DNA of 64,000 nucleotides from Bacteroidales bacterium (GTDB lineage: Bacteria > Bacteroidota > Bacteroidia > Bacteroidales > P3): positions 21,168-85,167 of the forward strand of contig JAFXAA010000007.1 of NCBI GenBank assembly GCA_017522105.1, written 5' to 3'. The translations under genes and the position numbers were made by a program. Each line of letters starts with the position of its first letter. The stretch's first letter is position 1. Below, one piece after another: positions 3,587 through 50,930 of this stretch. The notes beneath the pieces are model-generated. The model was not told the DNA's origin and did not search any database. It saw only the letters and a program-made list of their open reading frames with translations.

Positions 3587-3699
3587 CCCCTACGGACCCG
3601 GTACGGCCGTTCTTCAGTAGTTCTTCAGTAGTTCTTCAGTGTTTGACTGAAGAACTACTGAAGAACTACTGAAGAACGGCCGTAGGGACTCCGTAGGGG
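3587..3699. repeat. 11-bp-module hairpin, element A (reverse orientation)
   Basis: Left arm 3587-3640 reads in exact 11-bp steps: CCCCTACGGAC, CCGGTACGGCC, GTTCTTCAGTA, GTTCTTCAGTA, GTTCTTCAGT. The loop is GTTTG (3641-3645). The right arm 3646-3699 is ACTGAAGAAC, TACTGAAGAAC, TACTGAAGAAC, GGCCGTAGGGA, CTCCGTAGGGG. The inner 37 bp of the two arms (3604-3640 with 3646-3682) pair perfectly; mismatches are confined to the two outer modules. The loop is the complement of the CAAAC loop in elements C and D, so this copy is inverted relative to them. It lies between, and outside of, two divergent promoters. Confidence 0.9.
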
Positions 3700-3801
3700 C
3701 TCCGGTGGGGCGGCGGTGCAACCAAGGCCCCCGACCGCGGGGGATGCGCCTGGCGGCTGGGGCGGAAAGGGAGGCTGCCGGAAGGGTGTTCAAAAAAATA
3801 T

Positions 3802-3832
3802 TTTGCCATGTCGCAAAAAGGTAGTATCTTTG
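3802..3832 (+). promoter_or_regulatory. Promoter of the DUF3127 gene
   Basis: TTTG at 3802-3805, a 19-nt spacer and TATCTTTG at 3825-3832 match the Bacteroidota primary sigma consensus. Confidence 0.8.
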
Positions 3833-3898
3833 TGCTTTTGAAACAGGTGCCCACACCTGTGGCAATATATTGAATATTAACAAAAACAACGCAATACT

Positions 3899-4348
3899 AT
3901 GGAAATTATAGGCAAGTTAATCCAGATTTTGCCCGAAGTACAGGGCGAGTCGGCCCGCGGCCCGTGGGTGCGCGGCGGCTTTGTTATCGAGACCGGCGAC
4001 GACTATCCGCGCAAGGTGGCCTTCACGGCCTTCGGCGAGGAGCGCGTGGCCATGGCCAAGAATGTGCCGATGGGCTCGATGGTGCAGGTGACCTTCACGC
4101 CTGAGAGCCGCGAGTTCAACGAGCGCTGGTACACCGACCTGCGCTGCTCGCGCATACAGCCTTTCGTGCCGGGCCAGATGCCCGCCGCCCCGGCAGGCAA
4201 CTATGCCTGGAACCCGCAGCCCGGCGCAGCCCCCGCGGCGCAGCCGCAGGCCCAGCCCGCACAGCAGGCAGCCCCGCAGCAGCCGGCACAGGGCTTCGCA
4301 CAGCCGCCGGTGATGCAGCCGAACGGCGAGGACGACCTGCCGTTCTAA
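3899..4348 (+). CDS. DUF3127 protein with SSB-like acidic tip
   Basis: The 149-residue protein starts 'MEIIGKLIQILPEVQGES' and carries 'FVIETGDDYPRK' and 'SREFNERWYTDLR', which mark the DUF3127 family, an OB-fold-like family common in Bacteroidota. A Pro/Gln/Ala-rich linker (about 93-140) leads to the tail GEDDLPF, the same acidic-aromatic tip that single-strand binding proteins use to recruit partners. A role in DNA binding or repair is therefore likely but inferred. It is not canonical Ssb, whose core motifs are missing. The next gene (5-FCL) follows after 23 nt. Its neighbour across the divergent gap, DnaB, ends in a similar DVPF tip. Confidence 0.85.
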   Translation: MEIIGKLIQILPEVQGESARGPWVRGGFVIETGDDYPRKVAFTAFGEERVAMAKNVPMGSMVQVTFTPESREFNERWYTDLRCSRIQPFVPGQMPAAPAGNYAWNPQPGAAPAAQPQAQPAQQAAPQQPAQGFAQPPVMQPNGEDDLPF

Positions 4349-4371
4349 AAGTGTAAAGCGGAGAAAGAAAC

Positions 4372-4911
4372 GTGGAAAGCAAGGCAGAGACAAGGAAGCG
4401 GATGCGCGAGCTGAAGCGCGCCGTGCCCATGGAGGAGAAGCTGCGGCGCAGCGAGGCCGTCATGCGGCGCGTGGAGGAGCTCGCGGAGTTCCGCCGGGCC
4501 AAGGTGGTGCTGCTCTACTGGTCGATGGCCGACGAGGTGCAGACGCACGCCTTCGTGGAGCGGTGGTACAGGGAGAAGACCCTGCTGCTGCCCTGCGTGC
4601 GGGGCGACGACCTGGTGCTGCGGCGGTACACGGGACCGGAGTGCATGGTCAGCGGCGAGCAGTTCGGCATAGGCGAACCCACGGGACCGGAGTGGACAGA
4701 CCTCGGCGCCGTGGAGCTCATCGTGGTGCCCGGCGTGGCCTTCGACAGCGAGGGCAACCGCATGGGCCGCGGCCGCGGCTTCTACGACCGCCTGCTGAAG
4801 AGCACCCCGCGTGCCGCGAAGGTGGGCGTGGCCTACGACTTCCAGATGCTGGACCACATAGCCACCGAGCCGCACGACGTGAGGATGGACCGAGTGATAA
4901 CAGAAAGCTGA
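4372..4911 (+). CDS. 5-formyltetrahydrofolate cyclo-ligase
   Basis: The 179-residue protein converts 5-formyl-THF to 5,10-methenyl-THF with ATP. The family signature VPGVAFDSEGNRMGRGRG is at 119-136, followed by FYDR, and basic residues for ATP binding are at the N-terminus (KAETRKRMRELKR). The start is GTG at 4372 with a purine-rich stretch (GGAGAAAG) upstream; there is no suitable ATG. Length is typical. The stop codon lies inside the AGCTGTAAG repeat that fills the gap to the next gene. Confidence 0.93.
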   Translation: MESKAETRKRMRELKRAVPMEEKLRRSEAVMRRVEELAEFRRAKVVLLYWSMADEVQTHAFVERWYREKTLLLPCVRGDDLVLRRYTGPECMVSGEQFGIGEPTGPEWTDLGAVELIVVPGVAFDSEGNRMGRGRGFYDRLLKSTPRAAKVGVAYDFQMLDHIATEPHDVRMDRVITES

Positions 4912-4979
4912 GAGCTGTAAGCTGTAAGTTTTAAGTGGCTGGCGCCACACTAACAGCTTAAAACTTAAAGCTTAAAACT
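4905..4979. repeat. Inverted word repeat AGCTGTA / AGCTTAAAACTTAA
   Basis: The block consists of 7-bp words (AGCTGTA, AGCTGTA, AGTTTTA) followed by their partial complements. AAGTTTTAAG (4926-4935) pairs with CTTAAAACTT (4957-4966), with GTGGC/GCCAC near the tip. It fills nearly the whole gap between the 5-FCL and tail-anchored protein genes and covers the 5-FCL stop codon. Confidence 0.75.
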
Positions 4980-4992
4980 AACACCAGAGACA

Positions 4993-5532
4993 ATGCCGAT
5001 GTTCTACACCCCCAAGCCGCGGCAGTTCCACTACCAGCCGCGATTCTACGACCCCGAGAAGGAACGCTGGGAGGCCCTGAAGCAGAAGTACGCCGACGAG
5101 CGCGCCCTGCGCGAAGCCCTTGAGGAGGCGGAAAGCGAAGAGCGGAAAGTGGAAAGCGGAGAGTGGAAAGTGGAAAGCGGAGAGCGGAAAGCGGAAAGCG
5201 GGAAGCAGGATGCCGACCTGGAGTACTTCCAGCGCCGTGTGCGCGAGCTGGACCGCCAGGAGAAGCACCGGGGACTGACATGGAAGGACATGTTCCGCAA
5301 ACGCGAGATGCCCAAGTTCCGCTACCAGCCGCGCTTCCAGAACACGGAGAGCGCGGCGGAGGGCGGCGAACAGGGCGTCGGCGAGCACTTGGCGGAGTTC
5401 AAGAAGCGCGGCGTGAAGATAAAGCGGCGCTTCGACGTCACCGGCTCTGACGACCTGGAGCCCGTGCCCGCCGGACGCATCATGCTCTACGCCCTGCTGG
5501 TGTGCATGCTGCTGTATTGGATACTGTTCTGA
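4993..5532 (+). CDS. Tail-anchored hypothetical protein with in-frame repeat
   Basis: The 179-residue protein opens with 'MFYTPKPRQFHYQPRFYDPE' from its second possible methionine, a form I recognise from uncharacterised Bacteroidales proteins, and repeats part of it later ('KFRYQPRFQN'). It is rich in charged residues and ends with one transmembrane segment (about 160-178, 'IMLYALLVCMLLYWILF'), so it is probably anchored by its C-terminus with the bulk in the cytoplasm. Codons 47-73 hold a repeated ERKVESGEW-like stretch encoded by GGAAAGTGGAAAGCGG words, which looks like a repeat inserted in frame. Starts at 4993 and 4999 are both possible. Function unknown; it sits between folate and pantothenate genes. 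Confidence 0.75.
   Translation: MPMFYTPKPRQFHYQPRFYDPEKERWEALKQKYADERALREALEEAESEERKVESGEWKVESGERKAESGKQDADLEYFQRRVRELDRQEKHRGLTWKDMFRKREMPKFRYQPRFQNTESAAEGGEQGVGEHLAEFKKRGVKIKRRFDVTGSDDLEPVPAGRIMLYALLVCMLLYWILF
5133..5210. repeat. In-frame GGAAAGTGGAAAGCGG word repeat inside a CDS
   Basis: About ten-bp words (GGAAAGCGGA, GAGTGGAAAG, TGGAAAGCGG, AGAGCGGAAA) repeat without a stop codon in the coding frame. Related words appear between the DUF3127 and 5-FCL genes (4351-4380) and at the start of porQ (30225-30300). Confidence 0.75.
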
Positions 5533-5534
5533 AC

Positions 5535-5617
5535 TGTAAGCTGTGAGCTGTAAGCTGTAAGCACTTGCACAGGCCGTAGCGGCCACTTAAAACTTACAGC
5601 TTAATACTTAAAACTAA
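5535..5617. repeat. Second AGCTGTAAG inverted word repeat
   Basis: Tandem AGCTGTAAG/AGCTGTGAG words are followed by GGCCGTAGCGGCC and then complements CTTAAAACTTACAGCTTAA. It is the same word as 4905-4979 and again fills the gap between two consecutive plus-strand genes. Confidence 0.75.
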
Positions 5618-5622
5618 GAAAG

Positions 5623-5964
5623 ATGTTTATTGAAGTACTGAAATCGAAGATACACCGCGTGACGGTGACGGAGGCCGACCTGGACTACATAGGGTCAATC
5701 ACCATCGACGAAGCGCTGATGGAGGCCGCCGGCATCATCGAGAACCAGAAGGTGGAGATATACAACATCAGCAACGGCGAGCGCCTGGCCACCTACGCCA
5801 TCCGCGGCGAGCGCGGCACGGGGGTGATAGGCATCAACGGCGCCGCGGCCCGCAAGGCCGGAGTGGGCGACCTGCTCATCATCGCCGCCTACGCACAGAT
5901 GACGCCAGAGGAGGCACGCGAGTGGCACCCCACCGTGATTTTCCCGAAAGACAACAGGCTGTAG
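5623..5964 (+). CDS. panD: Aspartate 1-decarboxylase precursor
   Basis: The 113-residue pyruvoyl enzyme makes beta-alanine for pantothenate and CoA. The self-cleavage site is G24-S25 in 'YIGSITID', exactly where the family has it, and the residues '[19 protein letters not shown]' around 77-95 shape the active site. '[10 protein letters not shown]' near the start is also typical. Full length, with no sign of damage. It is followed by a 33-bp gap containing GGTTATTGGTTAT words. Confidence 0.96.
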
Positions 5965-5997
5965 ATGTTATAGGTTATTGGTTATAGATTAAAGGGT

Positions 5998-7041
5998 ATG
6001 GGTGGCATGACGGCAAAGAAGGAGAAGGGCACCGGCGTGACGCGCGGCGGCGTGCTGAGGCTCATCGTGTTCCTCGGCATAGGCTTCTTCTTCATCTACT
6101 GGTTCCTGCTCAAGCTCGACGCAGGGCAGAAGGCCGCCATCTGGGCTTCGTTCACCGGTGCCAACTACTGGTGGGTGGCGGCGACGATGGTGTGCAGCCT
6201 GCTGAGCCACCTGGTGCGCGCCCTGCGCTGGCGCCTGCTCTTCGAGCCCATGGGGCATGTGCCCTCGGTGAGCCACACCTTCGGTTCGGTGGTGGTGGCC
6301 TACATGGGCAACCTGGCCTTCCCGCGGGCGGGCGAGGTGATGCGCTGCGCCACCTTGCGCACCAGCGAGGGCATAGCCATGGAGAAGTCGCTGGGCACGG
6401 TGGTCACCGAACGCATCATCGACGCGCTGGCTTTCGCACTGGTGGTGGTCATAGGCCTGCTGGCCATGTTCGGCAAGGCCAAGGACTGGCTCTACGACAC
6501 CCTGACAGAGCGCTTCAGCAACTTGCCCAACATGGCTATGATTGTAGGCGCCCTGGCGGCGCTGGCCGTGCTGGCGCTGCTCTTCTACAAGCTCTTCTGG
6601 AAGAAGCTGCTGCACATAGCGTTCTTCAAGAAGATTGACGACTTGGTGCGCAACATGGTCGGCGGGGTGAAGAGCATCCTGCACCTCGGGCCGCGGGCCA
6701 CGGCGCTCTTCGTCGTCTACAGTGTGGTCATCTACACGCTCTACATCATGGGAGGGCTGATAATCTTCCAGGCGCTGCCCGAGACACAGTGGCTGGGCTT
6801 CCGCGCCGCCTTCGTGGTGTACCTCTTCGGCTCGGTGGGCATGACCTTCTCGCAGGGCGGCATCGGCGTATACCCTGTGCTGGTGCAGCTGGCGCTGGAC
6901 ATCTACGGCATCCCCATGGAGGTGGGCACCGCCTGCGGATGGCTCCTGTGGGGCTCGCAGCAGGCCGTGGTGCTCGCAGTGGGCGCCGCCTACATGGTGT
7001 ACTTCAGCGTGGTGAAGAAGACACACAAAAAAGAGGCATAA
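5998..7041 (+). CDS. LPG-synthase-type membrane protein (UPF0104 / LPG_synthase_TM)
   Basis: The 347-residue integral membrane protein has about eight hydrophobic segments and 'SHLVRALRWRLLFEPMG' near 62-78 plus 'MGNLAFPRAGEVMRCA' near 103-118, both hallmarks of the flippase-like domain of lysyl-phosphatidylglycerol synthases. The soluble aminoacyl transferase (DUF2156) domain is absent here. Stand-alone forms are thought to move or handle lipids, but substrates are unknown. A separate DUF2156 gene lies at 52186-53163. Starts at 5998 and 6007 are both possible; the first is used. Confidence 0.85.
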   Translation: MGGMTAKKEKGTGVTRGGVLRLIVFLGIGFFFIYWFLLKLDAGQKAAIWASFTGANYWWVAATMVCSLLSHLVRALRWRLLFEPMGHVPSVSHTFGSVVVAYMGNLAFPRAGEVMRCATLRTSEGIAMEKSLGTVVTERIIDALAFALVVVIGLLAMFGKAKDWLYDTLTERFSNLPNMAMIVGALAALAVLALLFYKLFWKKLLHIAFFKKIDDLVRNMVGGVKSILHLGPRATALFVVYSVVIYTLYIMGGLIIFQALPETQWLGFRAAFVVYLFGSVGMTFSQGGIGVYPVLVQLALDIYGIPMEVGTACGWLLWGSQQAVVLAVGAAYMVYFSVVKKTHKKEA

Positions 7042-7074
7042 TAAATAGTATCAACATATCAACGTATCAAGATT

Positions 7075-8004
7075 ATGGAACACACTCGCTGTTTGATTAT
7101 AGGTTCAGGCCCTGCTGGCTACACCGCAGGCATCTATACCGGTCGCGCCGACCTTAAGCCGCTGCTCTACGAAGGCGAACAGCCTGGCGGACAGCTGACC
7201 ATCACCACCGAGATTGAGAATTTCCCAGGCTACCCCGAGGGCATCGGCGGCACAGCCATGATGGACGACCTGCGGCGTCAGGCCCAGCGCTTCGGCTGCG
7301 AGGTGCGCCGCGGCTACATACGCGAGATAGACCTCAGCCACCGCCCCTTCCGCGCCACGGACGACCACGGCGTGGAGGTGGAGGCCGAGACGGTGATAGT
7401 GGCCACCGGCGCCACAGCCCGCTGGATAGGCCTTGAGAGCGAACAGAAGTACTACGGCGAGGGCGTGTCGGCCTGCGCCACCTGCGACGGCCCCTTCTAC
7501 AAAGGGCAGACCGTGGCGGTGGTGGGCGGCGGCGACACCGCCTGCGAGGAGGCCAACTACCTCAGCACGCTCTGCGCCAAGGTATACCTGGTGCACCGCC
7601 GCGACGAGCTGCGCGCCTCGAAGGCCATGCAGCACCGCGTGCTCACCAACCCCAAGATAGAGATGTGCTGGAACAGCCGCGTGAGCGAGATACTCGGCAC
7701 ACCGATGGACGGCGTCACCGGCGTGGAGCTCACCGACACCAAGACCGGCGAGAAGAGCCAGCGCGAAGTGACCGGCGTCTTTGTGGCCATCGGCCACAAG
7801 CCCGCCACCGACTTCCTCGGCGGCCAGCTGAAGCTCAACGAGCAGGGATATATAGAGATACAGCACCCCACGTCGGCCACCAGCGTGCCCGGTGTCTTCG
7901 CCGCAGGCGATGTGTGCGACCCCAACTACCGTCAGGCCGTGATGGCCGCCGCCGGCGGTTGCCGCGCAGCCATGGACGTGGAACGCTTCCTGCAAGAGAA
8001 CTGA
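7075..8004 (+). CDS. trxB: Thioredoxin-disulfide reductase
   Basis: The 309-residue flavoprotein reduces thioredoxin with NADPH. The FAD motif GSGPAG is at 10-15, the redox-active CATC at 134-137, the NADPH motif GGGDTA at 151-156 with 'HRRDELRASK' at 174-183 for the 2'-phosphate, and a C-terminal FAD segment 'GVFAAGDVCDPNYRQ'. Length is typical. The porin gene starts 4 nt after its stop, so the two are probably co-transcribed. Confidence 0.97.
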   Translation: MEHTRCLIIGSGPAGYTAGIYTGRADLKPLLYEGEQPGGQLTITTEIENFPGYPEGIGGTAMMDDLRRQAQRFGCEVRRGYIREIDLSHRPFRATDDHGVEVEAETVIVATGATARWIGLESEQKYYGEGVSACATCDGPFYKGQTVAVVGGGDTACEEANYLSTLCAKVYLVHRRDELRASKAMQHRVLTNPKIEMCWNSRVSEILGTPMDGVTGVELTDTKTGEKSQREVTGVFVAIGHKPATDFLGGQLKLNEQGYIEIQHPTSATSVPGVFAAGDVCDPNYRQAVMAAAGGCRAAMDVERFLQEN

Positions 8005-8008
8005 CACC

Positions 8009-9988
8009 ATGCGAGTGCGAAGAGCATACACCACTGTCCTCGCCCTGCTGCTCGCCGCAGCGGCACCACACTGCCTCAAGGCCCAGGTCAACCCGCAGAT
8101 CGACACGGCCCGCCACGAGGGGCCGCAGGTGCGTGGGCTTGAGTACCACAAGGAAGAGCCCGACAGTGTGAAGCGTGGCAAGGTGTACTACTTCTTCTAC
8201 ACCCCGGCGCAGACGAAAATCAACGTCCTGCACCATCCGCTGCTCTCGCCCACCGGGGCTCAGTTCAACGACCCCATAGACGCACTCGACGGCAACTACT
8301 ACCTCGGTATGGGCGTCATCGGCCACCCGCACCTTGCCCTCTACCCCACCCCCTTCGCCCCCCTCTCGCAAAGCCTCATCGGCGAGCCTTTCCCCGCCTA
8401 CGCCAAGCGGCTCGGCAACGTGCGCTTCTTCCAGACACGCACCCCCTACTCCCAACTGGCCTACCACTCGTCGCTCAACAAGGACTACATCGTCCGCGCC
8501 TCCCACACACAGAACATAATACCCGGATGGAATATCTCCTTTGACTACACCCTCATGCGCCCCGACGGCGTATACACATCCACCTACGCCAAAGACCACC
8601 TCCTCGACGCCACCACCAACTACTTCTCGCGCGACGCACGCCTGCAGGCCAAAGCCGCCGTGGTGTGGAACTCCATGCGCAACGATGAGAACGGCGGCCT
8701 CACGGACGACGGCTACTTCACAGGCAACTACAGCACCAACTACGCCGGCATGCCGGTGAACATATACAACCTCCAGTCGCGCCACAACGACCTCGCCCTC
8801 ATGGGCGGCGTAAGCTACAGCCTCGTCCCGCAGTTCGAGCAGTACCGTCAGCGCGACAGCATAGCCGTCAGCATGGACGCAGACAGCACAGTGGTCTACG
8901 ACACCATCGAGGTCACAGACACCATACCGCTCCGCAAGCCGCATACCCTCAACGCAGGCACCTTCGGCATAGAGTTCACCTACGACAGGCGCAAACGCGT
9001 CGCTGTGGACTCCACCATGTGGCGCGAATACTGTGCACGCCTCTTCTGGACCAACGACGTCTATCCCGACCACCGATGGCGCAACCCCCTGAAAATAACC
9101 CTCGGCATACAGCCCCGCTACGTCTTTGCCGACATCGTCGGCGACACCCTCGGCTATCGTTCGTGGCTTGACCCCTTCGCCCGTGTGGAGATAGCGCTGG
9201 GGCGCGGAAACCTCACTGCCGAAGGAGAGATGCGCAAAGCCCTCGTGAACACAAACAGGCAGGACTCGCGCCTCGCCGCCACATTCTACTATCCCTTCGA
9301 CAGCGCACGCAACACCTTCATTGAAGCCAAAGCCGCCTTCGCCTCGCGCACACCAGAGCTCAGGCTTGTCCACATGGCGCAAAGAACTGCGGGCAACGTG
9401 CTCAAAGCAGTGAACACGGCCTCCTTTGGCGCACACTTCCGCCACAAAGACATCGTAGACTTCAGCGTGCAGGCCACACACTACGACCACAATACATGGT
9501 TCGACACCACTTTGCTGGCTGTTGAAGGCGCAGCCACCCTGTGGCTCTACCAGGCAGCACTCACCACCCATCTCCACTGGGGATGGATGCACCTCGACAT
9601 GCAACACCTGCTGCAACATAGCACCGACACCGCGCAGATGCCTGTGCCCATGTTCGCCACCAAGAACTCGCTATACGCCGACGTCACACTCTTCCACGGA
9701 GCCCTCCGCGCCCAATTCGGCGTGGACATACGCTACCACACCATGTTCTACTCGCCCAACTACGACCCCTACACAGGCCTCTTCTATCACCAGCACACAG
9801 CACGCGTCGGCGGCTACCTCTGGGGCGACATCTTCCTCAACCTCCAGCTCAAGCGCGCAACCATCTATGTGAAAGCAGGCCACCTCAACGCCCTTTGGGA
9901 GGAAGAACGCAAATACTTCCTCCTGCCCCACTACCCCGGCCAGGGCTTCGGCCTCTTCTATGGCCTCACGTGGAAATTCTTTGATTAA
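8009..9988 (+). CDS. Putative outer-membrane porin (Porin_10-like)
   Basis: The 659-residue protein has a signal peptide (about 1-25, ending LKAQ). It continues with many alternating, aromatic-rich strands such as 'GKVYYFFYTPAQTKI' and 'WNISFDYTLMRPDG', and closes with 'GLFYGLTWKFFD', typical for a beta-barrel. It resembles the 'putative porin' family common in Bacteroidota; substrate unknown. It overlaps nothing and is tightly spaced after trxB (4 nt) and before rdgB (21 nt). Confidence 0.8.
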   Translation: MRVRRAYTTVLALLLAAAAPHCLKAQVNPQIDTARHEGPQVRGLEYHKEEPDSVKRGKVYYFFYTPAQTKINVLHHPLLSPTGAQFNDPIDALDGNYYLGMGVIGHPHLALYPTPFAPLSQSLIGEPFPAYAKRLGNVRFFQTRTPYSQLAYHSSLNKDYIVRASHTQNIIPGWNISFDYTLMRPDGVYTSTYAKDHLLDATTNYFSRDARLQAKAAVVWNSMRNDENGGLTDDGYFTGNYSTNYAGMPVNIYNLQSRHNDLALMGGVSYSLVPQFEQYRQRDSIAVSMDADSTVVYDTIEVTDTIPLRKPHTLNAGTFGIEFTYDRRKRVAVDSTMWREYCARLFWTNDVYPDHRWRNPLKITLGIQPRYVFADIVGDTLGYRSWLDPFARVEIALGRGNLTAEGEMRKALVNTNRQDSRLAATFYYPFDSARNTFIEAKAAFASRTPELRLVHMAQRTAGNVLKAVNTASFGAHFRHKDIVDFSVQATHYDHNTWFDTTLLAVEGAATLWLYQAALTTHLHWGWMHLDMQHLLQHSTDTAQMPVPMFATKNSLYADVTLFHGALRAQFGVDIRYHTMFYSPNYDPYTGLFYHQHTARVGGYLWGDIFLNLQLKRATIYVKAGHLNALWEEERKYFLLPHYPGQGFGLFYGLTWKFFD

Positions 9989-10009
9989 CCGCAAAAGCCA
10001 CAACCCATA

Positions 10010-10594
10010 ATGAGAAAACTGATATTCGCCACCAACAACAAGCACAAAGTGGAAGAAGTGCGCGCCGCCCTCGCCGGGGCCGTGCAGATAGTCACCCTTG
10101 CCGAAGCAGGCCTCAGCGGCGAAATACCCGAGACCGCAGACACCCTGCAGGGCAACGCGTTGCAGAAAGCGCAGTGGGTGTGGGAACGCACAGGCATGGA
10201 CTGCTTCGCCGACGACACGGGCCTCGAAGTGGACGCCCTCGGCGGTGCACCTGGCGTATACTCCGCCCGCTACGCCGGCGAACACTGCTCCTTCGACGAC
10301 AACGTCAACAAACTGCTTGCCGCGCTCCAAGGCCAGACCAACCGCCGCGCGGACTTCCGCACCGTGATATGCCTCATAGAAAGAGGTGAGCCCAAATATT
10401 TCGAGGGCCGTGTGGACGGGCAGATACTCACCGAGCGCCACAGCAACGGCGAAGGCTTCGGCTACGACCCCATCTTCATGCCCGACCGTTTCGCCCTCAG
10501 TTTTGCCGAGATGCCCATCGACGTGAAGAACCGCATCAGCCACCGCGGCCTCGCCGTGCAGAAACTTGCCGAATACCTAAAAGTGTCGTTTTGA
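10010..10594 (+). CDS. rdgB: XTP/dITP diphosphatase
   Basis: The 194-residue enzyme removes non-canonical purine triphosphates (XTP, dITP) from the nucleotide pool. The substrate loop 'ATNNKHKVEEV' is at 7-17, 'CFADDTGLEVDAL' carries the catalytic acid, 'GVYSARYAG' follows, and 'GFGYDPIFMPD' and 'ISHRGLA' close the active site. Full length. The next gene starts within a few bases of its stop codon. Confidence 0.96.
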   Translation: MRKLIFATNNKHKVEEVRAALAGAVQIVTLAEAGLSGEIPETADTLQGNALQKAQWVWERTGMDCFADDTGLEVDALGGAPGVYSARYAGEHCSFDDNVNKLLAALQGQTNRRADFRTVICLIERGEPKYFEGRVDGQILTERHSNGEGFGYDPIFMPDRFALSFAEMPIDVKNRISHRGLAVQKLAEYLKVSF

Positions 10595-10599
10595 CTGTC

Positions 10600-11136: not shown

Positions 11137-11144
11137 ACACCCAT

Positions 11145-11188
11145 CCCCTACGGAGCCCCTACGGAGCCCCTACGGCCGTTCTTCAGTG
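11145..11188. repeat. 11-bp-module element B (solo arm)
   Basis: Four consecutive modules, CCCCTACGGAG (11145), CCCCTACGGAG (11156), CCCCTACGGCC (11167) and GTTCTTCAGTG (11178), match the left arm of elements C and D. The loop and second arm are absent, so it cannot fold into the long hairpin. It lies between two co-directional genes. Confidence 0.85.
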
Positions 11189-11263
11189 GAAAGCCGTAGA
11201 AAGTCCGTTCCGGATACGTGGCGGTGGCGGCGAGACTCCGACCCCTAACCCAAGACACCAAAA

Positions 11264-13610: not shown

Positions 13611-13611
13611 C

Positions 13612-14907: not shown

Positions 14908-14929
14908 AGCAGTATAATTATTATTGTTT

Positions 14930-16127: not shown

Positions 16128-16166
16128 CTGTATAATAGTCGCACGACGGTGCCAATATACTACAGC

Positions 16167-17584: not shown

Positions 17585-17594
17585 CTGTGCTTTC

Positions 17595-19915: not shown

Positions 19916-20056
19916 AAAATATTTTCTCCCCGCAGCCCCACCTTCACCCGTCCTAACCCCCTACTAACCCGCATGACAACCCCGCACAATTCCCTCCCCG
20001 AGCCCCATGCCCCACAGATGAAAATACAAAATTCCAAACTCGCCCTCCCCTCGCCT

Positions 20057-20158
20057 CCCCTACGGAGCCCCTACGGCATTTCTTCAGTAGTTCTTCAGTA
20101 GTTCTTCAGTCAAACACTGAAGAACTACTGAAGAAATGCCGTAGGGGCTCCGTAGGGG
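20057..20158. repeat. 11-bp-module hairpin, element C (asymmetric)
   Basis: Left arm: CCCCTACGGAG, CCCCTACGGCA, TTTCTTCAGTA, GTTCTTCAGTA, GTTCTTCAGT (20057-20110). Loop CAAAC (20111-20115). Right arm: ACTGAAGAAC, TACTGAAGAAA, TGCCGTAGGGG, CTCCGTAGGGG (20116-20158). The 43-nt right arm is an exact complement of the left arm minus one GTTCTTCAGTA module, so one module has been gained or lost on one side only. Confidence 0.92.
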
Positions 20159-20286
20159 GGCCGTACCGGCTGCGATGCAAAATGTGTGCTTTATTTTATT
20201 TCGTGGCGGCCGACATACAATATTTTCGCGGTTCTTGCGTTATGACATAAAAATTTGTATTTACTTTAATACTTAAAAACACCGTT

Positions 20287-35332: not shown

Positions 35333-35423
35333 CCGGTACGGAGCCCCTACGGCCGTTCTTCAGTAGTTCTTCAGTAGTTCTTCAGTCAAACACTGAAGAA
35401 CTACTGAAGAACTACTGAAGAAA
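35333..35423. repeat. 11-bp-module hairpin, element D
   Basis: Left arm: CCGGTACGGAG, CCCCTACGGCC, GTTCTTCAGTA, GTTCTTCAGTA, GTTCTTCAGT (35333-35386). Loop CAAAC. Right arm: ACTGAAGAAC, TACTGAAGAAC, TACTGAAGAAA (35392-35423). The expected outer right modules (CCGTAGGGG type) are missing and are replaced by the 44-bp array. Confidence 0.9.
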
Positions 35424-35640
35424 TGCCGTCGCGGAGGCGACGGAACTACGCCTCTCGGCGGAAGAAATGCCGTCGCGGAGGCGACGGAACTACGCCCCTC
35501 GGCGGAAGAAATGCCGTCGCGGAGCCGACGGAACTACGCCCCTCGGCGGAAGAAATGCCGTCGCGGAGCCGACGGAACTACGCCCCTCGGCGGAAGAAAT
35601 GCCGTCGCGGAGCCGACGGAACTACGCCCCTTGGCGGAAG
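35421..35640. repeat. Five exact-length 44-bp tandem repeats
   Basis: Units start at 35421, 35465, 35509, 35553 and 35597. Each is four 11-bp modules; in the phase of the hairpin these are TGCCGTCGCGG, AGGCGACGGAA (or AGCCGACGGAA), CTACGCCCCTC and GGCGGAAGAAA. The units differ at only a few positions (GGCGACGG in units 1-2, GCCGACGG in 3-5). Each can form a CCGTCGC/GCGACGG-type small stem. A further degenerate half-unit follows (35641-35690). Confidence 0.93.
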
Positions 35641-35806
35641 AACGGTCGTACCGGGTCCGCAGCAAGGCCGTAGGGATGCGGTGCCGGACGGGGGGAGGAA
35701 AGATTATTTTGGCCAAGGCACAATATAAAGCGGCAAAGGTCGTTATGATGTTGTTGTCGTGCAGGGTGCGCGGCAAACATATAAATAGCATAAACAACAG
35801 AAAGAC

Positions 35807-36869: not shown

Positions 36870-36894
36870 ATAATAAACAATAAAAGATAGAACG

Positions 36895-38286: not shown

Positions 38287-38346
38287 TGGTTACAGGTTAT
38301 TGAATGCCCCTGACTGTTTTAATTGAATAAAAGACACACAAAGAAT

Positions 38347-39378: not shown

Positions 39379-39414
39379 ACAACCCTTTACTAACAACCAA
39401 TCACCAATCACAAC

Positions 39415-42600: not shown

Positions 42601-42665
42601 GTTTAAGGTGGCCACACAGACAACCTTAAACCTTAAACCTTAACCCCCAAACCCTAAACCTTACC
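42601..42665. repeat. CCTTAAA word repeat in the efflux operon
   Basis: GTTTAAGGTGGCC is followed by ACCTTAAACCTTAAACCTTA words and CCCTAAACC variants, giving an imperfect stem. It fills the gap between the pump gene and the PG0541-type gene. Confidence 0.65.
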
Positions 42666-42959: not shown

Positions 42960-42995
42960 ACCACCTCGACTGGCACAACGCTGCCATCATCGTCC

Positions 42996-43024
42996 AAGGA
43001 ACCTCCGCAGAGGTTCCTTTTTTT
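42996..43024 (+). terminator. Terminator of the efflux operon
   Basis: AAGGAACCTC / GAGGTTCCTT, perfect 10-bp stem with a CGCA loop, then T7. Confidence 0.93.
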
Positions 43025-43128
43025 GTACCATCCAACGTCCCTCAACCCATTCCCGAACGTGCATACTGGATGAACCAAAAACCATACATCAAAATGTTAA
43101 AATATAATCAACTCTTTTTAAAGAAAGT

Positions 43129-43183
43129 GTTGGTAAAGCGATGGTAAGGAGTTGGTAAGGAGTTGGTAAAGACATGGTCAGGA
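43129..43183. repeat. Five tandem 11-bp modules
   Basis: GTTGGTAAAGC, GATGGTAAGGA, GTTGGTAAGGA, GTTGGTAAAGA, CATGGTCAGGA. Same 11-bp period as the long hairpins, but a different word and no second arm. Confidence 0.85.
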
Positions 43184-43304
43184 CAGAACACTGACAAACA
43201 GCGAGTTGCATACACTCCATCACAAAACACCCAACAGTCTGTTCTACAGCATATTGTCTAATTACACAACACATACTGCTTTGCCTCTTGAAATGTTAAA
43301 AAAA

Positions 43305-43324
43305 AGCGTGGCAAAAGCCACGCT
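43305..43324 (-). terminator. Terminator of the arc-exchanger-porin unit
   Basis: AGCGTGGC / GCCACGCT with a 4-nt loop; on the minus strand it is followed by eight T. Confidence 0.92.
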
Positions 43325-43401
43325 CTATTTCAAGGACAACATCCGGGAATGCTGAGACGCACATACCGACGACATGGTGGGGAACGCAACGAGAGAGGCG
43401 G

Positions 43402-44706: not shown

Positions 44707-45896
44707 GCCATCAAAACAAGCAGTTGAGCTGTGAAAATGCGGAGGAACATGGTGAGGGGGTAGACGGTGGCATAGCCGGTGTTGGGCAGCTTGCAGCCCT
44801 CGGGGGCCATGTTGTTGGCGAAAGCAAGCGTGGGCGGGTCGGTGTGGCTGCCGCCGATGAAGCCCATCAGCGTATAGTAGTTAATCTTCAGCACCAGACG
44901 TCCGAAGAGGCCCACGAGCAACGGCGGCACCATGGTGATGATGACGCCGTAGAGAACCCACATGTAGCCACCGGCCTGGATGGTGGCCAGGAAGCTGCCG
45001 CCAGCGCTGAGGCCGACACCTGCAAGGAAGAGGGCGATGCCCACTTCGCGCAGCATCCAGACACCATGGCTTTCTGTGAATTCAGTTGTGAACCAGCCCT
45101 TCTTCACTCCCAGCCAGGCACCGATGAGGCTCACCACCAGCGGGCCGCCAGCGAGGCCAAGCTTGACGGGGGCCGACATACCGACGGGTATGGGGATGGA
45201 GCCCACGATGATACCGATAGCAATGATGACGAAGATGGGGACGATGTTGACTTTGTGGCGCTGCGAGACGGGAGTGGCCTTCTTCTCGGCAGGCTCCACG
45301 GTCGTGTCGTCGGCCACGGGCTCACGCTTCAGGTCGATGCGGCACAGCGGGCGAAGCAGCAGGCACACTGCTATCATGCCCACCACAGCCAGCGGATAGG
45401 CCACGGCGTAGCCGGCGGCCAGCTGGTCGGCGGCATCGCCCATGCCGAGGTCGCGCACCGTCTGCTGTGCAGCCGAGAGACCGGGGGTGTTGGTGACGGC
45501 ACCGGTGTAGACACCCGCCATGTCGGTCAGGCTCTGACCGGCCGTCTTGGCAATGATGTAGGTGATGAGCACACCGAGGGCTACATTGACAAGGGCCATG
45601 CCGTTCATGGCAAGGCCGCCCTTCTTAAAGCTCTTGAAAAAGCCGGGACCCACCTGCAGGCCAACTGCCGTGACGAAGAGGATGAGACCGAACTCCTTAA
45701 TGATGTGCAGCATCTCGCCGTTGCACTGCACGCCGAGGGCGCTGATGAGGATGCCCACAAAGAGCACCCAAGTGATGCCAAGGGTGACGCCCTTAATCTT
45801 GAACTTGCCCAGCAGCAAGCCAGCAAAGATAGAGACGGAGAGCATCAGCACCGTGGTGCCGACACCCCCACTGGTAAGTAAGTTAGTAAACCACAT
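44703..45896 (-). CDS. AspT/YidE-type exchanger lacking TrkA-C domains
   Basis: The 397-residue membrane protein has two copies of the Asp-Al_Ex domain, each with about five helices ('GLILFVTAVGLQVGPGFF' in the first, 'VGIALFLAGVGLSAGGSFL' in the second, the repeated signature). Family members near 550 residues have two TrkA-C domains between these halves. Here only a linker of about 35 polar residues remains (around 195-225). Relatives exchange aspartate for alanine. Next to arcB/arcC it may exchange citrulline and ornithine (inference). Confidence 0.85.
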   Translation of the reverse strand: MWFTNLLTSGGVGTTVLMLSVSIFAGLLLGKFKIKGVTLGITWVLFVGILISALGVQCNGEMLHIIKEFGLILFVTAVGLQVGPGFFKSFKKGGLAMNGMALVNVALGVLITYIIAKTAGQSLTDMAGVYTGAVTNTPGLSAAQQTVRDLGMGDAADQLAAGYAVAYPLAVVGMIAVCLLLRPLCRIDLKREPVADDTTVEPAEKKATPVSQRHKVNIVPIFVIIAIGIIVGSIPIPVGMSAPVKLGLAGGPLVVSLIGAWLGVKKGWFTTEFTESHGVWMLREVGIALFLAGVGLSAGGSFLATIQAGGYMWVLYGVIITMVPPLLVGLFGRLVLKINYYTLMGFIGGSHTDPPTLAFANNMAPEGCKLPNTGYATVYPLTMFLRIFTAQLLVLMA

Positions 45897-45921
45897 AGTT
45901 AATGCGTTAGTTCGTTATTGT

Positions 45922-45998
45922 TTAATGCGTTAATATGTAAAAACGTTAATGTGCTAATGATTGGTGCACCAGCACTAACACATTAACGCATTTAATCA
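45922..45998. repeat. GCGTTAAT inverted word repeat
   Basis: TTAATGCGTTAATATGT and CGTTAATGTGCT are matched by AGCACTAACACATTAACG and CATTAACGCATTTAA on the other side of GGTGCACC. It fills the gap between arcB and the exchanger gene, and shares its word with the repeat inside the DUF2156 gene (52791-52864). Confidence 0.8.
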
Positions 45999-46005
45999 AT
46001 CAGCA

Positions 46006-47007
46006 TCAGTCGCCGAGGGTGGCAACCATGACGGCCTTGATGGTGTGCATGCGATTCTCGGCCTCGTCGAAGACAATGCTGTTCTCGCTTTCGAAGACCT
46101 CTTCGGTCACCTCAATACCGTTCAGGCCGAACTTCTCATGGACGTCGCGGCCGGCCTTGGTCTCCAGGTTGTGGTAGGCGGGCAGGCAGTGCATGAACTT
46201 GCACTTCGGGTTGCCGGTCTTCTTCATCAGCTCGGCGTTGACCTGGTAGGGCATCAGCATGTTGATGCGCTCTTTCCACACGCTGTCGGGCTCGCCCATG
46301 GACACCCAGATGTCGGTGTAGATGAAGTCGAGGCCCTTCACGCCCTTCTCGACGTCGTCGGTGACGGTGAGCTTGGCACCGGTCTCCTTGGCGATCTCCT
46401 GGCACTTCTTAACGAGATCCTTGGCGGGCTGAAGCTTCTTGGGGGCAATGATGCGGATGTCCATGCCCATCTTCACGCCACCGACCATCAGGCTGTTACC
46501 CATGTTGTAGCGGGCATCGCCGATGTAAGCGAACTTCACCTGGTTCAGGGGCTTGTCGGTATGCTCCTGGATGGTGAGGAAGTCGGCCAGAATCTGTGTG
46601 GGGTGAGCCTCGGCGGTAAGGCCGTTCCAAACGGGAACACCGGCATATTCAGCCAGTTCCTCGACGGTGGCCTGGTCGAAGCCGCGGTATTCGATACCGT
46701 CGAACATACGGCCCAGCACGCGGGCGGTGTCCTTCATGCTCTCCTTGATGCCGATCTGGCTACCAGTGGGGCCGAGATAGGTGACATGGGCACCCTGGTC
46801 CTTGGCGCCGACCTCGAAGGCGCAGCGCGTACGGGTCGAAGTCTTCTCGAAAATCAGGGCAATGTTCTTGCCCTTGAGGTGGGGCTGCTCGGTGCCTGCA
46901 TATTTGGCGCGTTTCAGGTCGCGAGCCAGGTCGAGCAGGTAGTTGAGTTCTTTCGGGCTGAAGTCGAGAATCTTCAGGAAATTGCGGTTTCTAAGATTAT
47001 AAGCCAT
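46006..47007 (-). CDS. arcB: Ornithine carbamoyltransferase, probably catabolic
   Basis: The 333-residue enzyme carries STRTR at 57-61 (carbamoyl phosphate), 'HPTQILADF' and 'MHCLPAYHN' (ornithine and catalytic Cys). It interconverts citrulline plus phosphate with ornithine plus carbamoyl phosphate. Being encoded directly after carbamate kinase favours the catabolic direction. Length and sequence agree with the ArcB/ArgF type; the anabolic role cannot be excluded by sequence. Confidence 0.93.
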
Positions 47008-47063
47008 GTTGTTTGATGTTTTATTTGTTTGTTGTTAATTTGTTTGTTGCATTCACTTTGCGG

Positions 47064-47999
47064 CTATCTCACTATGCGTGTGCCGCAGTTGGGGTTGTTC
47101 AGCTGGCCGGCCTCGGTGATGATGCACTCTTTGCCGCCGTGCTCCACGAACATGATGGCCGCCCGCACCTTCGGGGCCATAGACCCTTCGGCAAACTGGC
47201 CCTCTTCGAGGTACTTCTTGGCTTGGGCGATGGTGATGGTGTCCAGAGCCTGCTCGTTCTCCTTGCGGAAGTTGATGTACACCTTCGGCACGTCGGTGAG
47301 GATGTAGAACTCGTCGGCACCAATCTCCACGGCGCAGAGGGCGCTGGCCAAATCCTTGTCAATGACGGCCTCAACACCGCGCACATAATCGCTCTCTTCC
47401 ACCACGGGAATGCCGCCACCGCCGACAGTGACTACTATGTTGCCCGCCGTGGCCAGCTGCTTGACGATTTTGATATTATTGATACGCACGGGCTTGGGCG
47501 ATGCCACAACCTTGCGCCAGCCGTTGCCTTTGGGGTCTTCCTTGTACTTGGCACCGGTCTCTTCGGCCAGCTTGTCGGCCTGCTCCTTGGTGTAGTAAGG
47601 TCCCACGGGCTTGGTGGGATTCTGGAACATGGGGTCCAGTTTGTTGACGGCCACCTGGGTCACCAGCGTCACCACGTCGCGCTGTATGTCATGGCGCGCC
47701 ATGACATTGCGCAGCCCCATCTCGATGAGGTAGGCGATGGAGCCCTGCGTCTCGGCGACACAATAGTCCATCGGCATGGCCTGCACGCCGACACTCTTGC
47801 CGGCCTCGTGTTGCAGCATCACGTTGCCCACCTGAGGGCCGTTGCCGTGGCCAATCACGATATTATAGTTGCGTTTCAGCAGTGCGTAGAGGCTCTCACA
47901 GGTGTCCTCCACGTTCTGCAACTGCTCCTGGTAGGTGCCTTTTTGGCCGCTGCGCAACAGCGCATTGCCTCCGAAAGCCACCACTGCAAGTTTTCTCAT
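47064..47999 (-). CDS. arcC: Carbamate kinase
   Basis: The 311-residue amino-acid-kinase-fold enzyme makes ATP from carbamoyl phosphate and ADP. 'FGGNALLRSGQ' at the start, 'VIGHGNGPQVGNV' and 'VVTVGGGGIPVVEE' are signatures. It leads the arcC-arcB-exchanger-porin unit. Arginine deiminase (arcA) is not in the window. Confidence 0.95.
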   Translation of the reverse strand: MRKLAVVAFGGNALLRSGQKGTYQEQLQNVEDTCESLYALLKRNYNIVIGHGNGPQVGNVMLQHEAGKSVGVQAMPMDYCVAETQGSIAYLIEMGLRNVMARHDIQRDVVTLVTQVAVNKLDPMFQNPTKPVGPYYTKEQADKLAEETGAKYKEDPKGNGWRKVVASPKPVRINNIKIVKQLATAGNIVVTVGGGGIPVVEESDYVRGVEAVIDKDLASALCAVEIGADEFYILTDVPKVYINFRKENEQALDTITIAQAKKYLEEGQFAEGSMAPKVRAAIMFVEHGGKECIITEAGQLNNPNCGTRIVR

Positions 48000-48060
48000 T
48001 TTATTATACTTTATTAATTGTCAATTCCATAGCACCCTCCATCACATGCGAGGGAAAGTG

Positions 48061-48068
48061 CAAAGGTA
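48061..48068 (-). promoter_or_regulatory. Promoter -7 box of arcC
   Basis: TACCTTTG on the minus strand, 62 nt before the arcC start; no clear TTTG at the right spacing. Confidence 0.55.
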
Positions 48069-48187
48069 TGAAAAAAAATTCAATGTGCACAGAAAAATGT
48101 TTACAACATGCATTTTTGCCGTCTGCTGCCACCTGCCAGCACCCTTCCGTCTGGTGGGCAACCACACACAAACGGCATCGCCGCCAC

Positions 48188-49567
48188 CTACCGCACCGAC
48201 GTCTGCTGCATTTCCTGACATTTCAGCCTGTCGTTAATCCAGAAGGCATAGGGCACCGCAAGGATGAAGGTCAGCACATCGGCCACGGCCTGCGCCATCT
48301 GCACCCCCTGCATGCCCAGCCACAGGGGCAACAACAGGATGGCCGGCAAGAAGAAGAGCCCGTTGCGGCAGACGCTCAGCAGCGTGGCCGGAAAGGTCAT
48401 GCGTATGTTCTGGAAAAGCATACCCGTGGCTGTAAAAAGACCCACCAACGGGAATGCCACACACTGCCAACGCAGAGTGACAGCACCTATCTCGATGAGT
48501 GCCGTATCCTCGGCGCGAAACAATGCAACTATCTGTGGCGCAAAGACAAACCCCGCCGCCGAGATGAGCAGCAGAAATGCCGTGCCCACACTGACGGTGA
48601 AGAGCCACGCCTCGCGCACACGACCGTAGAGCCGCGCCCCGTAGTTGTAGCCGCAGACAGGCTGGAAGCCCTGGCAGAAGCCAAGCACCACGCTGAAGGC
48701 GAACATCATGATGCGCGTCACCACAGCAAAGGCCGCCACGGCGCTGGCCTCCTGTCCCTCAGGGGCATAGAGGGCGGCGCAATAGTTGAGGCTCACGGCG
48801 GCGGCGCAGTTGAACACCTGGCGGAAAAGCGATGGCAGCCCACCCCGGAAAATCTCGTAATAGACTCGCCACGAGGGCCTGAAGTCGCGCAGCCGTATGT
48901 GGACGCACTGCGGACGGAAGGTGCCGACGAGCAGCAGCCCCCAGGCGAAAAGCTGGCTGACGGCGGTGGCCAAAGACGCACCGCTGACGCCCATGCCAAG
49001 GGTGAAGATTAACAGCGGGTCGAGGGCTATGTTGAGCACCGCTCCACTGACGATGCCCACCATGCCGAAGGCGGCATTGCCCTGCAGACGCAGCTGGTTG
49101 TTCAACGTCAGGGCCGACATCATGAACGGCGTGGCCATGACAATATAGCGCAGATAATCGTTGGCGAAGGGCACCACGGCCTCGGGGGAACCAAGCAGTC
49201 GGCTCAAGGCCGAGAGATTTGGCAGACAGACAACTGCCGCCACAAGACCTATGAGGAACGGCGTGACGAACCCCACCGAGGCAACCACCGAGGCCGACGA
49301 CGTGTCTTTGGCGCCGAGAGCTCGCGACATGAAGTTGCCGCTGCCGTGGCCGAAGAAGAAGCCAAGCGCCTGGATGAACGTCATGTAGGCAAACGAGATG
49401 CCAATGCCCGCAGTGCCCTCGGTGCTGAGGCGACCGACAAAGGCGGCATCGACGACATTATACAGCGCCGTGGTCACCATGGCAATGATGGTGGGCACAG
49501 CCATCTTGCACACCAGCAGCCTTATGGGCCGCTGCGTCATTTCTTCGTATTTATCCTCAAGTGTCAC
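48188..49567 (-). CDS. MATE family efflux transporter
   Basis: The 459-residue protein has twelve transmembrane segments in two MatE halves ('AFVGRLSTEGTAGIGISFAY', 'VCGYNYGARLYGRVREAW'). It exports cationic compounds with Na+ or H+ antiport. The start is GTG at 49567, overlapping the HtrA stop as GTGA, so the two genes are translationally coupled. Confidence 0.92.
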   Translation of the reverse strand: MTLEDKYEEMTQRPIRLLVCKMAVPTIIAMVTTALYNVVDAAFVGRLSTEGTAGIGISFAYMTFIQALGFFFGHGSGNFMSRALGAKDTSSASVVASVGFVTPFLIGLVAAVVCLPNLSALSRLLGSPEAVVPFANDYLRYIVMATPFMMSALTLNNQLRLQGNAAFGMVGIVSGAVLNIALDPLLIFTLGMGVSGASLATAVSQLFAWGLLLVGTFRPQCVHIRLRDFRPSWRVYYEIFRGGLPSLFRQVFNCAAAVSLNYCAALYAPEGQEASAVAAFAVVTRIMMFAFSVVLGFCQGFQPVCGYNYGARLYGRVREAWLFTVSVGTAFLLLISAAGFVFAPQIVALFRAEDTALIEIGAVTLRWQCVAFPLVGLFTATGMLFQNIRMTFPATLLSVCRNGLFFLPAILLLPLWLGMQGVQMAQAVADVLTFILAVPYAFWINDRLKCQEMQQTSVR

Positions 49568-50694
49568 TTGCGGATAACATCGGTAGTACCTTTGGAATTA
49601 AGCAGTTTCGCTTTCACGGTCTCCGTGTGTCCGTTGCGCTCGTAGTCCACCTCCACCTCGTCGCCGGGGCTGAAGAGACCCAGTTCCTCCATCATCTCGG
49701 CAAAAGTGTTCACCTCCTTGCCTGCCACGCGCAACACTATGTCGCCCTGACGTATGCCGACACGGTCGGCGGCACAGTCTTTCACGACCTTGGCCACATA
49801 AAGTCCCTTGATGTCGCGCGCACCGGTCTGACGGGCTATATTGGCGTCCATCTCAGTGACTTGCAACCCCAGATAGCCCCGCTGCACATAGCCGTAGCGC
49901 TGCAGGTCGCCTGCCACCTTGACAGCCAGATTGCTGGGTATGGCGAAGGAGTAGCCGATGTAGTTGCCGTTGCCGGAAGCTATAGCCGTCACAACACCCA
50001 CAAGTTCGGCCTGCGAGTTGACCAGCGCACCTCCACTGTTACCTGAATTGACAGCCGCATCTGTCTGCAAGAAAGACTCTAACGGCGTTTCATTGCTGTG
50101 CGGATTGTCTATGATGTGCATGTTGCGCGCCTTGGCGCTGATGATGCCGCTGGTGACGGTGGAGGTGAGGTTGAAGGGGTTGCCGATGGCAAGCACAGGC
50201 TCGCCGACCTTCACCAGGTCGCTGTTGCCAAAGGGGATGTAGGTCAGCCCCTCGGCCTCCACCTTGATGACTGCCAGGTCGGTGGCGGGATCGTTGCCTA
50301 CAAGCTTGGCGGGCAACTCGCGCCGGTCGTTGAGAGTCACACTGATACGCTCGGCATCCTGCACCACATGGTTGTTGGTCAGTATGTAGCCGTCGCTGGT
50401 GATAATCACACCCGAACCGTAGGCGCTGTACACCTGCTTCTGCACCCCCTGCGGGATGATGAAGCCGAAGAACGACTGGTAGAGCGGCGTCATCTGCGTC
50501 ATCTCGGTCTTGATGTGCACCACGCCGTCAATCGTTGCAGCGGCAACATCGGTGAAATCACTAATCTTAAGTCTGTTGACAGCCTGCTGTTGAGGCATCA
50601 CTTCAACAGCCTTGACAGGCTCTTCCTGCTGCTGCCCGCAGGCTTGGAAAGCAAGGCAAAGCCCTGCCATGGCAAATACAAATGTCTTTCTCAT
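49564..50694 (-). CDS. Trypsin-like periplasmic serine protease, HtrA/DegS type
   Basis: About 376 residues: signal peptide (MRKTFVFAMAGLCLAFQAC, perhaps a lipoprotein), protease domain with H109 ('TNNHVV'), D139 ('ATDLAVIKV') and S220 ('GNSGGAL'), and one PDZ domain (about 265-360). One PDZ and a possible lipid anchor resemble DegS more than DegP. ATG at 50694 is used; 50709 (five codons more) is possible. It diverges from the methyltransferase gene over element E. Confidence 0.92.
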   Translation of the reverse strand: MRKTFVFAMAGLCLAFQACGQQQEEPVKAVEVMPQQQAVNRLKISDFTDVAAATIDGVVHIKTEMTQMTPLYQSFFGFIIPQGVQKQVYSAYGSGVIITSDGYILTNNHVVQDAERISVTLNDRRELPAKLVGNDPATDLAVIKVEAEGLTYIPFGNSDLVKVGEPVLAIGNPFNLTSTVTSGIISAKARNMHIIDNPHSNETPLESFLQTDAAVNSGNSGGALVNSQAELVGVVTAIASGNGNYIGYSFAIPSNLAVKVAGDLQRYGYVQRGYLGLQVTEMDANIARQTGARDIKGLYVAKVVKDCAADRVGIRQGDIVLRVAGKEVNTFAEMMEELGLFSPGDEVEVDYERNGHTETVKAKLLNSKGTTDVIRK

Positions 50695-50807
50695 ATCTTT
50701 ATATTTCATTTCAATAACTGCGTTTTCATATTTTTATTGTCCGGCAACGCCATTTATGATTATCAAAAAACATGCCACACCGTTTTTATGCCACCGCCGG
50801 AGCGCAC

Positions 50808-50930
50808 CCGGTACGGTATTCCTACGGCTGTTCTACGGTTGTTTAACGGTTGTTCTACGGTTGTTTAACGGTCAAAACCGTAGAACAACCGTAGAACAAC
50901 CGTTAAACAACCGTAGAACAGCCGTAGAGG
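50808..50930. repeat. 11-bp-module hairpin, element E (different core word)
   Basis: Left arm: CCGGTACGGTA, TTCCTACGGCT, GTTCTACGGTT, GTTTAACGGTT, GTTCTACGGTT, GTTTAACGGT (50808-50872). Loop CAAA. Right arm: ACCGTAGAAC, AACCGTAGAAC, AACCGTTAAAC, AACCGTAGAAC, AGCCGTAGAGG (50877-50930). Outer modules and loop agree with A, C and D, but the inner word is GTTCTACGGTT instead of GTTCTTCAGTA. Only the innermost module and the outermost bases are mismatched. Confidence 0.92.

Follow-up and report, generated by a model that had tools for sequence, protein, structure and literature searches.

Elements built from 11-bp modules occur in many copies in the genome of a Bacteroidales bacterium, and it is their 11-bp register that is conserved; the pairing of their arms and the words of their modules are not. 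We analysed a 64,000-nucleotide stretch of this genome (GenBank assembly GCA_017522105.1, contig JAFXAA010000007.1, positions 21,168 to 85,167; hereafter the window), in which an initial inspection of the letters alone (the sequence-only reading) had picked out a set of long hairpins, together with the rest of the genome (G000; 2.28 Mb in 38 contigs) and the genomes of relatives, which are given by our own handles. The data suggest that spacing matters more than exact sequence. The explanation that we favour, while judging it somewhat likelier to fail than to hold, is that the elements are helically phased arrays for a putative DNA-binding protein, homogenised genome-wide. The elements of the window are listed here.

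3582..3704, unstranded: element A, with arms at 3582-3640 and 3646-3704 and loop GTTTG at 3641-3645, in a divergent gap
11145..11212, plus strand: element B, of type C2, with three CCCTACGG modules, tip TTCTTCAGTGGAA and a degenerate right arm, in a codirectional gap
20052..20169, unstranded: element C, with loop CAAAC at 20111-20115, between a divergent gene and tpi
35333..35429, unstranded: hairpin of element D, with loop CAAAC at 35387-35391, in a divergent gap
35417..35642, unstranded: repeat in the right arm of D, with a 44-bp unit (4 x 11) present 5.1 times
43124..43185, unstranded: direct 11-bp array with a GGTAAGGAGTT-type word, in a convergent gap
50808..50930, unstranded: element E, with TTCTACGGTTG/TTTAACGGTTG words, arms at 50822-50872 and 50877-50927 and loop at 50873-50876, in a divergent gap

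A multi-copy family in an 11-bp register

Elements A, C, D and E lie where the sequence-only reading had placed them and proceed in 11-bp steps as it described. Folded as single-stranded DNA and compared with dinucleotide shuffles, they give z-scores of -19.1, -16.2, -13.0 and -15.9, respectively, with -3.5 for element B. The arms can be unequal, element C having three inner units on the left and two on the right, and CCNNTACGG is found 22 times in the window against 5.6 expected. The loop, previously given as CAAA(C), has 5 nucleotides in A, C and D, where it reads CAAAC or GTTTG, and 4 (CAAA) in E. Element B had been described as a solo arm; a copy is indeed present at 11145, but it is not a bare arm, since it belongs to a second type (C2) with a degenerate second arm in the 11-bp register.

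The elements are real and multi-copy. A genome-wide search, in which a lack of further copies was to count against a family, returned many: the inner 21-mer GTTCTTCAGTAGTTCTTCAGT occurs at 187 places in G000 and the outer pair CCNNTACGGNNCCNNTACGG at 102, with none for the reversed-pattern control in either case. Stretches around the listed places yielded at least 62 hairpins, among them one outside the family (L049), and at least 32 copies of type C2; these totals are lower bounds, the copies having been sought mainly by three patterns and the first-listed places fetched. The inner modules of the full hairpins are mostly TTCTTCAGTAG; a smaller group, E among them, has TTCTACGGTTG or TTTAACGGTTG. 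Outside the inner modules come shells of CCCTACGG, followed by fading shells that hold the 11-bp register. C2 copies consist of a uniform arm, a tip of the form CCG-TTCTTCAGT-GGAA and a degenerate arm that is still in register. Over the inner three shells, pairwise identity in the uniform arm is 0.98, 0.87 and 0.96; the variable arm has 0.57 to 0.65.

Two ideas about the origin and orientation of the copies were rejected. For a phage or plasmid origin, element C was searched alone and had no match in either collection, and C2 orientation gave no replication-linked signal (mean GC skew -0.007, 13 of 32 positive). In G000, several copies are no more than a few hundred bases away from the end of a contig (C8, C9, C10, C12, C18, C21 and C31), and short-read assemblies are probably broken by these repeats.

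Location relative to genes and promoters

Gene contexts were taken from a self-made codon-usage gene caller. Of the 62 hairpins in G000, 37 are in divergent gaps, 12 in codirectional gaps and none in convergent gaps, with 13 at contig or stretch edges; the 49 classifiable rows include the non-family L049, as codirectional. Divergent gaps are in excess both against the gaps of at least 100 bp in the window (12 codirectional, 5 divergent and 3 convergent of 20; 37/49 vs 5/20, p 1.4e-4) and against 20 stretches from other species (37/49 vs 20/104, p 2.5e-11), where contexts are rough, the caller having performed poorly in several genomes other than G000 (coding fractions from 0.09 to 0.97). The deficit of convergent copies is borderline when taken alone (0/49 vs 9/104, p 0.058). 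C2 copies are distributed over 15 codirectional and 11 divergent gaps, 3 convergent gaps, 1 predicted gene interior and 1 edge (31 classed). In G012, which carries another word, 8 of 13 places are divergent, 4 codirectional and 1 convergent; in G170 and G293 the gene caller failed, leaving 7 of 7 places unclassified.

The -7 promoter motif of Bacteroidetes is TAnnTTTG. This motif stands between hairpin and gene, directed towards the gene, in 59 of 86 flanks, compared to 10 in the opposite direction and 4.8 expected, and is found neither inside hairpins nor in the 20 bases on each side. The full hairpins are upstream of promoters and none is in a convergent gap; therefore, they are DNA-level elements rather than terminators and, as far as gene calls and motifs can tell, appear to be mainly upstream DNA outside transcripts. 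A transcribed RNA hairpin or terminator would explain why the hairpins are so stable, but this location, together with the lack of a promoter motif inside, makes it very improbable, as do the ordinary terminator-like hairpins with T runs that stand beside some copies (seen by eye at L049 and L072). A scan of the window at Rfam gathering scores gave no match, and a known RNA family was rejected. Because the elements are upstream of promoters, the turn of A-form RNA that the sequence-only reading had offered as a reason for the 11 bp is unlikely to be that reason.

We also considered REP elements mobilised by a RAYT (Y1) transposase, as these are short, high-copy intergenic palindromes and GTAG is present within the CCGTAG modules. 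GTAG sits inside repeated modules and not as a single foot at the stem end (an observation with no dedicated test). Some 1.2 kb, including a predicted gene, separate the single Y1 gene of G000 from the nearest element, and the Y1 gene is not flanked by repeats; G008, G009 and G019 carry matching arrays with no Y1 match (the genomes being 88, 95 and 81% complete); and Y1 genes are present in 47 of 61 genomes anyway. REPs are reported mainly from unidirectional and convergent gaps (PMC3733652), in contrast to the distribution observed here. No link to a RAYT-type protein was seen, and gene content and location led us to reject this origin as scarcely credible.

Conservation of register, pairing and words

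On the sequence-only reading, structure rather than sequence appears to be maintained, and compensatory changes were to be tested for. We measured arm agreement in 27 of 49 two-armed hairpins, namely those lacking a D-type insert. The last three bases of the junction shell agree between arms in 23 of 27 (14.8 expected, p 0.0014). Whole-word agreement does not go beyond chance in shell 2 (4/27 vs 2.2 expected, p 0.14) or in shell 3 (1/26 vs 2.2 expected), and C2 arms within a locus match no better than arms re-paired across loci (0.621 vs 0.631). Agreement is limited to the core and the junction shell and is absent in C2, and we rejected compensatory evolution of the arms. Maintenance of structure over sequence is likewise not supported by these values, nor by a word found in one arm only in G023 and hairpin-free arrays in relatives, both described below.

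The outer shells do not, on sequence comparison, seem to be simply decaying. In 15 orthologous pairs from G000 and G023 (26 arms), identity at positions 3, 6, 7 and 8 is 0.91, 0.89 and 0.74 for shells 1-2, 2-3 and 3-4, respectively, and at positions 1, 2, 10 and 11 it is 0.67, 0.65 and 0.60. That positions 3, 6, 7 and 8 are kept suggests sequence recognition at 11-bp spacing, and constant helical spacing of sites with conserved positions, as expected of a phased protein-binding array, is present here.

Beyond G000, the pattern TACGGN6TACGGN6TACGG is found in 13 of 61 genomes, 12 of these being among the 37 of the genus, own included (reversed control 5/61), and in 24 of 393 genomes of the order (reversed control 7/393); control matches in relatives arise partly because some words contain the control pattern. 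Outside the genus, the matches are in part hairpins and in part plain direct arrays, and the named records with the word, among the matches listed, are the uncultured rumen Bacteroidales RUG061, RUG377, RGIG5009 and RUG737. In the region upstream of tpi, which adjoins element C, 13 of 28 genomes, including G000, carry an array with a period of 11 or 22 bp, and the other 15 have none (30 loci were fetched and 2, cut at contig starts, excluded), while 20 shuffled sets of these loci contain none. Most of these arrays have other words, such as TTCGACCATCG, GGTTGTGCTTA, GTTGTACTATC, CGCCTGATCAA and CCAACACCGAC, and in several relatives they are direct 11-bp arrays with no hairpin.

Words are also exchanged at several orthologous sites. 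G008 carries hairpins with TTCGACCATCG-type words at loci A and D, and G023 the G000 word with another loop; in most other species the flanks of these loci lie apart and the sites are not readable. At locus E, a C2 copy is present in G023, other words in G439 and G457, and a direct array in G461, where only the left flank was matched. The direct array at 43124..43185 is absent from the matching gap of G023 and G008. Taken together, the 11-bp register is conserved and pairing and words are not, and the multi-copy family with an exact register and an architecture outlasting word change, as first proposed, is borne out. A set of 22 words resembles the G000 inner word more than shuffled words do (score 6.27 vs 5.62, with 0 of 400 shuffles as high), but we picked these words ourselves and two TACGG hubs are less clear (13 and 16 of 400 shuffles as high), and we do not rely on a common ancestry of all words.

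Intergenic arrays were also counted in other species, over 20 unselected stretches of 20 kb; periods of 7 (14 arrays) and 11 (11 arrays) stand out, with 10 found once and 12 and 13 never. These values bear on neutral tandem duplication with gene conversion, in which replication slippage would set the unit length. Gains and losses of whole modules between orthologues and the second preferred period of 7 bp are in keeping with such a process, but the scarcity of periods next to 11, the location upstream of promoters and the constrained positions make it improbable.

Loops are shared species-wide and vary from one species to another. CAAAC is the loop in 41 of 46 hairpins of G000, and GCCGC, GCAGC or GCCAC in 38 of 39 of G023. 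Orthologous sites could be mapped for 18 of 93 elements. At 13 of these sites a CAAAC loop corresponds to a GC-type loop, and the other 5 comprise 2 C2-C2 pairs and one each of C2-hairpin, GCCGC-GCCGC and ATCCG-GCCGC; the G023 loci were fetched for holding the 21-mer, which biases this comparison to occupied sites. A newer G023 word, TTCAACGATAC, was read in 9 rows, and in 8 it is confined to one arm; two rows overlap at a single locus. Copies appear to be overwritten arm by arm, so that gene conversion or hairpin copying fits better than base-by-base compensation. Pure growth from the tip was attractive, given that C2 tips contain one TTCTTCAGT, the inner word of full hairpins. It was rejected as a sole route since no one-sided extended tip is present in the G000 and G023 stretches and the newer G023 word is often in mid-arm, and we keep it only as part of the selfish explanation considered below.

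Phased arrays, selfish palindromes and known systems

If the elements are binding arrays, the 11-bp modules would act at the DNA level, upstream of promoters and mostly between two divergent ones, with each module a predicted site for a nucleoid- or regulator-type protein. The in vivo helical repeat reported for supercoiled bacterial DNA is 11 bp per turn (PMC8501960), and with a unit of this length all sites would face the same side of negatively supercoiled DNA. A pair of arrays in inverted orientation would supply each divergent promoter with an equivalent array through which transcription might be affected, and from this symmetry hairpin potential would largely follow. New words and loops would spread among copies, probably by gene conversion through the shared arms, with the consequence that most copies of one species share inner word and loop.

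Distances to promoters are suggestive, though only suggestive, of phase locking. In G000, distances from the hairpin dyad to the -7 motif show a period close to 11 bp (R 0.39 at 11.0, with a peak of 0.42 at 10.8 and 11.6; n=58), compared to R 0.02 for start codons as control (n=85). Anchoring the distance on the arm gives R 0.43 (p 0.0001, n=51; start codons R 0.04), and G023 as a whole has the same phase as G000 (p 0.0031).

Several observations weigh against binding arrays. The phase lacks independent confirmation: it is not significant in the 27 G023 flanks with no G000 orthologue (p 0.28), in C2 (n=22, p 0.55), in G012 (n=9, p 0.36) or in E-type elements (n=4, p 0.61). A runs and T runs in the flanks are likewise phased, as is the GCC triplet, so that lattice remnants may contribute to the phase signal. 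C2 copies are not enriched in divergent gaps (11/29, p 0.37). Locus E has no 11-bp array in G008 and G010, and of seven relatives only G023 has an array at locus B, with none of 11 bp in G008, G457, G461, G012, G459 and G010. Whether TACGG points towards or away from the centre varies between species, and the species-wide change of loops is not accounted for by protein binding alone. Finally, the array-binding protein is a postulate, for which none was identified.

The main rival holds that the elements are selfish modular palindromes with no host function. Units of 11 bases would be duplicated, and resident copies overwritten, through template switching once a hairpin or cruciform is extruded or through a putative enzyme that works on the folded strand, and divergent promoters would merely be where negative supercoiling extrudes the cruciform. 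Near-perfect cores, species-wide loops, near-identical units at most of the 13 G012 places, one-arm replacement in G023, shells that fade outward and the unoccupied locus E of G008 and G010 are all in its favour, as is the existence of an algal mitochondrial palindrome of like design (LIMP, PMC4524435). Position-specific conservation in the outer shells speaks against it, as does a period kept by direct arrays with no long hairpin; moreover, the G000 and G023 stretches lack the one-sided extended tip, and no enzyme was identified. We regard it as a doubtful but serious contender. Cruciforms could also act as topological buffers that absorb or insulate negative supercoils between divergent promoters. 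The divergent location, the very stable folds and the reported requirement of cruciforms for negative supercoiling (PMC4524435, PMC3969353) agree with this; given relatives with direct arrays and no palindrome, and outer arms that are not kept complementary, we give the idea little credence.

Returning to phased arrays, we tentatively raise the possibility of a genus-wide, perhaps order-wide, promoter-side DNA system in which the period, 11 bp or one helical turn in vivo, is conserved and the sequence is not, with species rewriting word and loop at most copies while keeping many sites. If so, there would have to be either a fast-changing array-binding protein that co-evolves with about a hundred sites or a genome-wide machinery for rewriting units. 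The elements offer a natural experiment, in which a promoter-side element keeps its place, its period and its architecture and has its sequence replaced species by species. It becomes testable whether bacteria use helically phased arrays, matched to the supercoiled state of the DNA, at divergent promoters, and by which route about a hundred scattered copies come to be rewritten in concert from one close species to the next.

The sequence-only reading knew of no described element of this design, and in the literature searched, which was thin in subscription papers and preprints, we likewise found no 11-bp modular palindromes at bacterial divergent promoters and no replacement of words under an unchanged period. 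Of the published designs found, the nearest is the Lobosphaera incisa mitochondrial palindrome (LIMP; PMC4524435), which also has tandem units in each arm, a short loop that is invariant but occurs in both orientations, arms that differ in their number of units, and decayed end units, and is intergenic and multi-copy. The elements described here likewise have a constant loop with tandem units on both sides, but with 11-base words instead of the 5-base LIMP unit (AACCA/TGGTT). LIMP is confined to 19 copies in one algal mitochondrion and, in the available portion of that report, is neither tied to bacterial divergent promoters nor described as exchanging words across species at constant period. 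REP and BIME elements are high-copy intergenic palindromes too, with some species-specific families; they are 20-40 bp long, carry a GTAG or CGTC tag and are RAYT-linked (PMC3733652), unlike the modular 11-bp arms in divergent gaps described here. A long inverted repeat upstream of a Bacteroidales operon is bound in vitro by the HU protein PG0121, but it is a single locus, and the available text does not state a modular structure. Sponge mitochondrial hairpin elements (PMC2800124) are similarly dispersed, intergenic and strongly lineage-variable; they are organellar and, as far as the available account goes, have no 11-bp module register. TAACTGA heptamer arrays (PMC4679880) resemble our elements as many-copy intergenic direct arrays of a short unit, with Bacteroidetes among the carriers, but consist of one 7-bp word near start codons with no palindrome, and are closer to the 7-bp arrays noted here.

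These 7-bp arrays, with varying words, form a second intergenic class, present in the window at 5534-5562 and 42622-42660 and in L330-L349; of the 14 in the unselected stretches, 12 are in codirectional gaps, and they resemble the TAACTGA heptamers (PMC4679880). In G293, which belongs to another family, L253 and L275 have 11-bp hairpins whose polarity is reversed (CCGTA precedes the centre); these lie inside longer shared flanks and look like part of a larger repeated element. Six direct TTCTTCAGTAG copies are found in L202 (positions 10-74) and L238 (positions 112-176), on contigs of a metagenome-assembled genome labelled Burkholderiales, beside frames that by eye resemble XerD, MurB, CTP synthase and fumarase; chance, transfer and binning are candidate causes. 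The fifth divergent gap of the window (56747-56808) holds a different palindrome, with 31-bp arms that are 81% complementary and have no 11-bp register, and a further repeat family with CCCCGTAGGGG- or AACCCCTACAGGGGTT-like words is present beside element A (3466-3564) and in L015.

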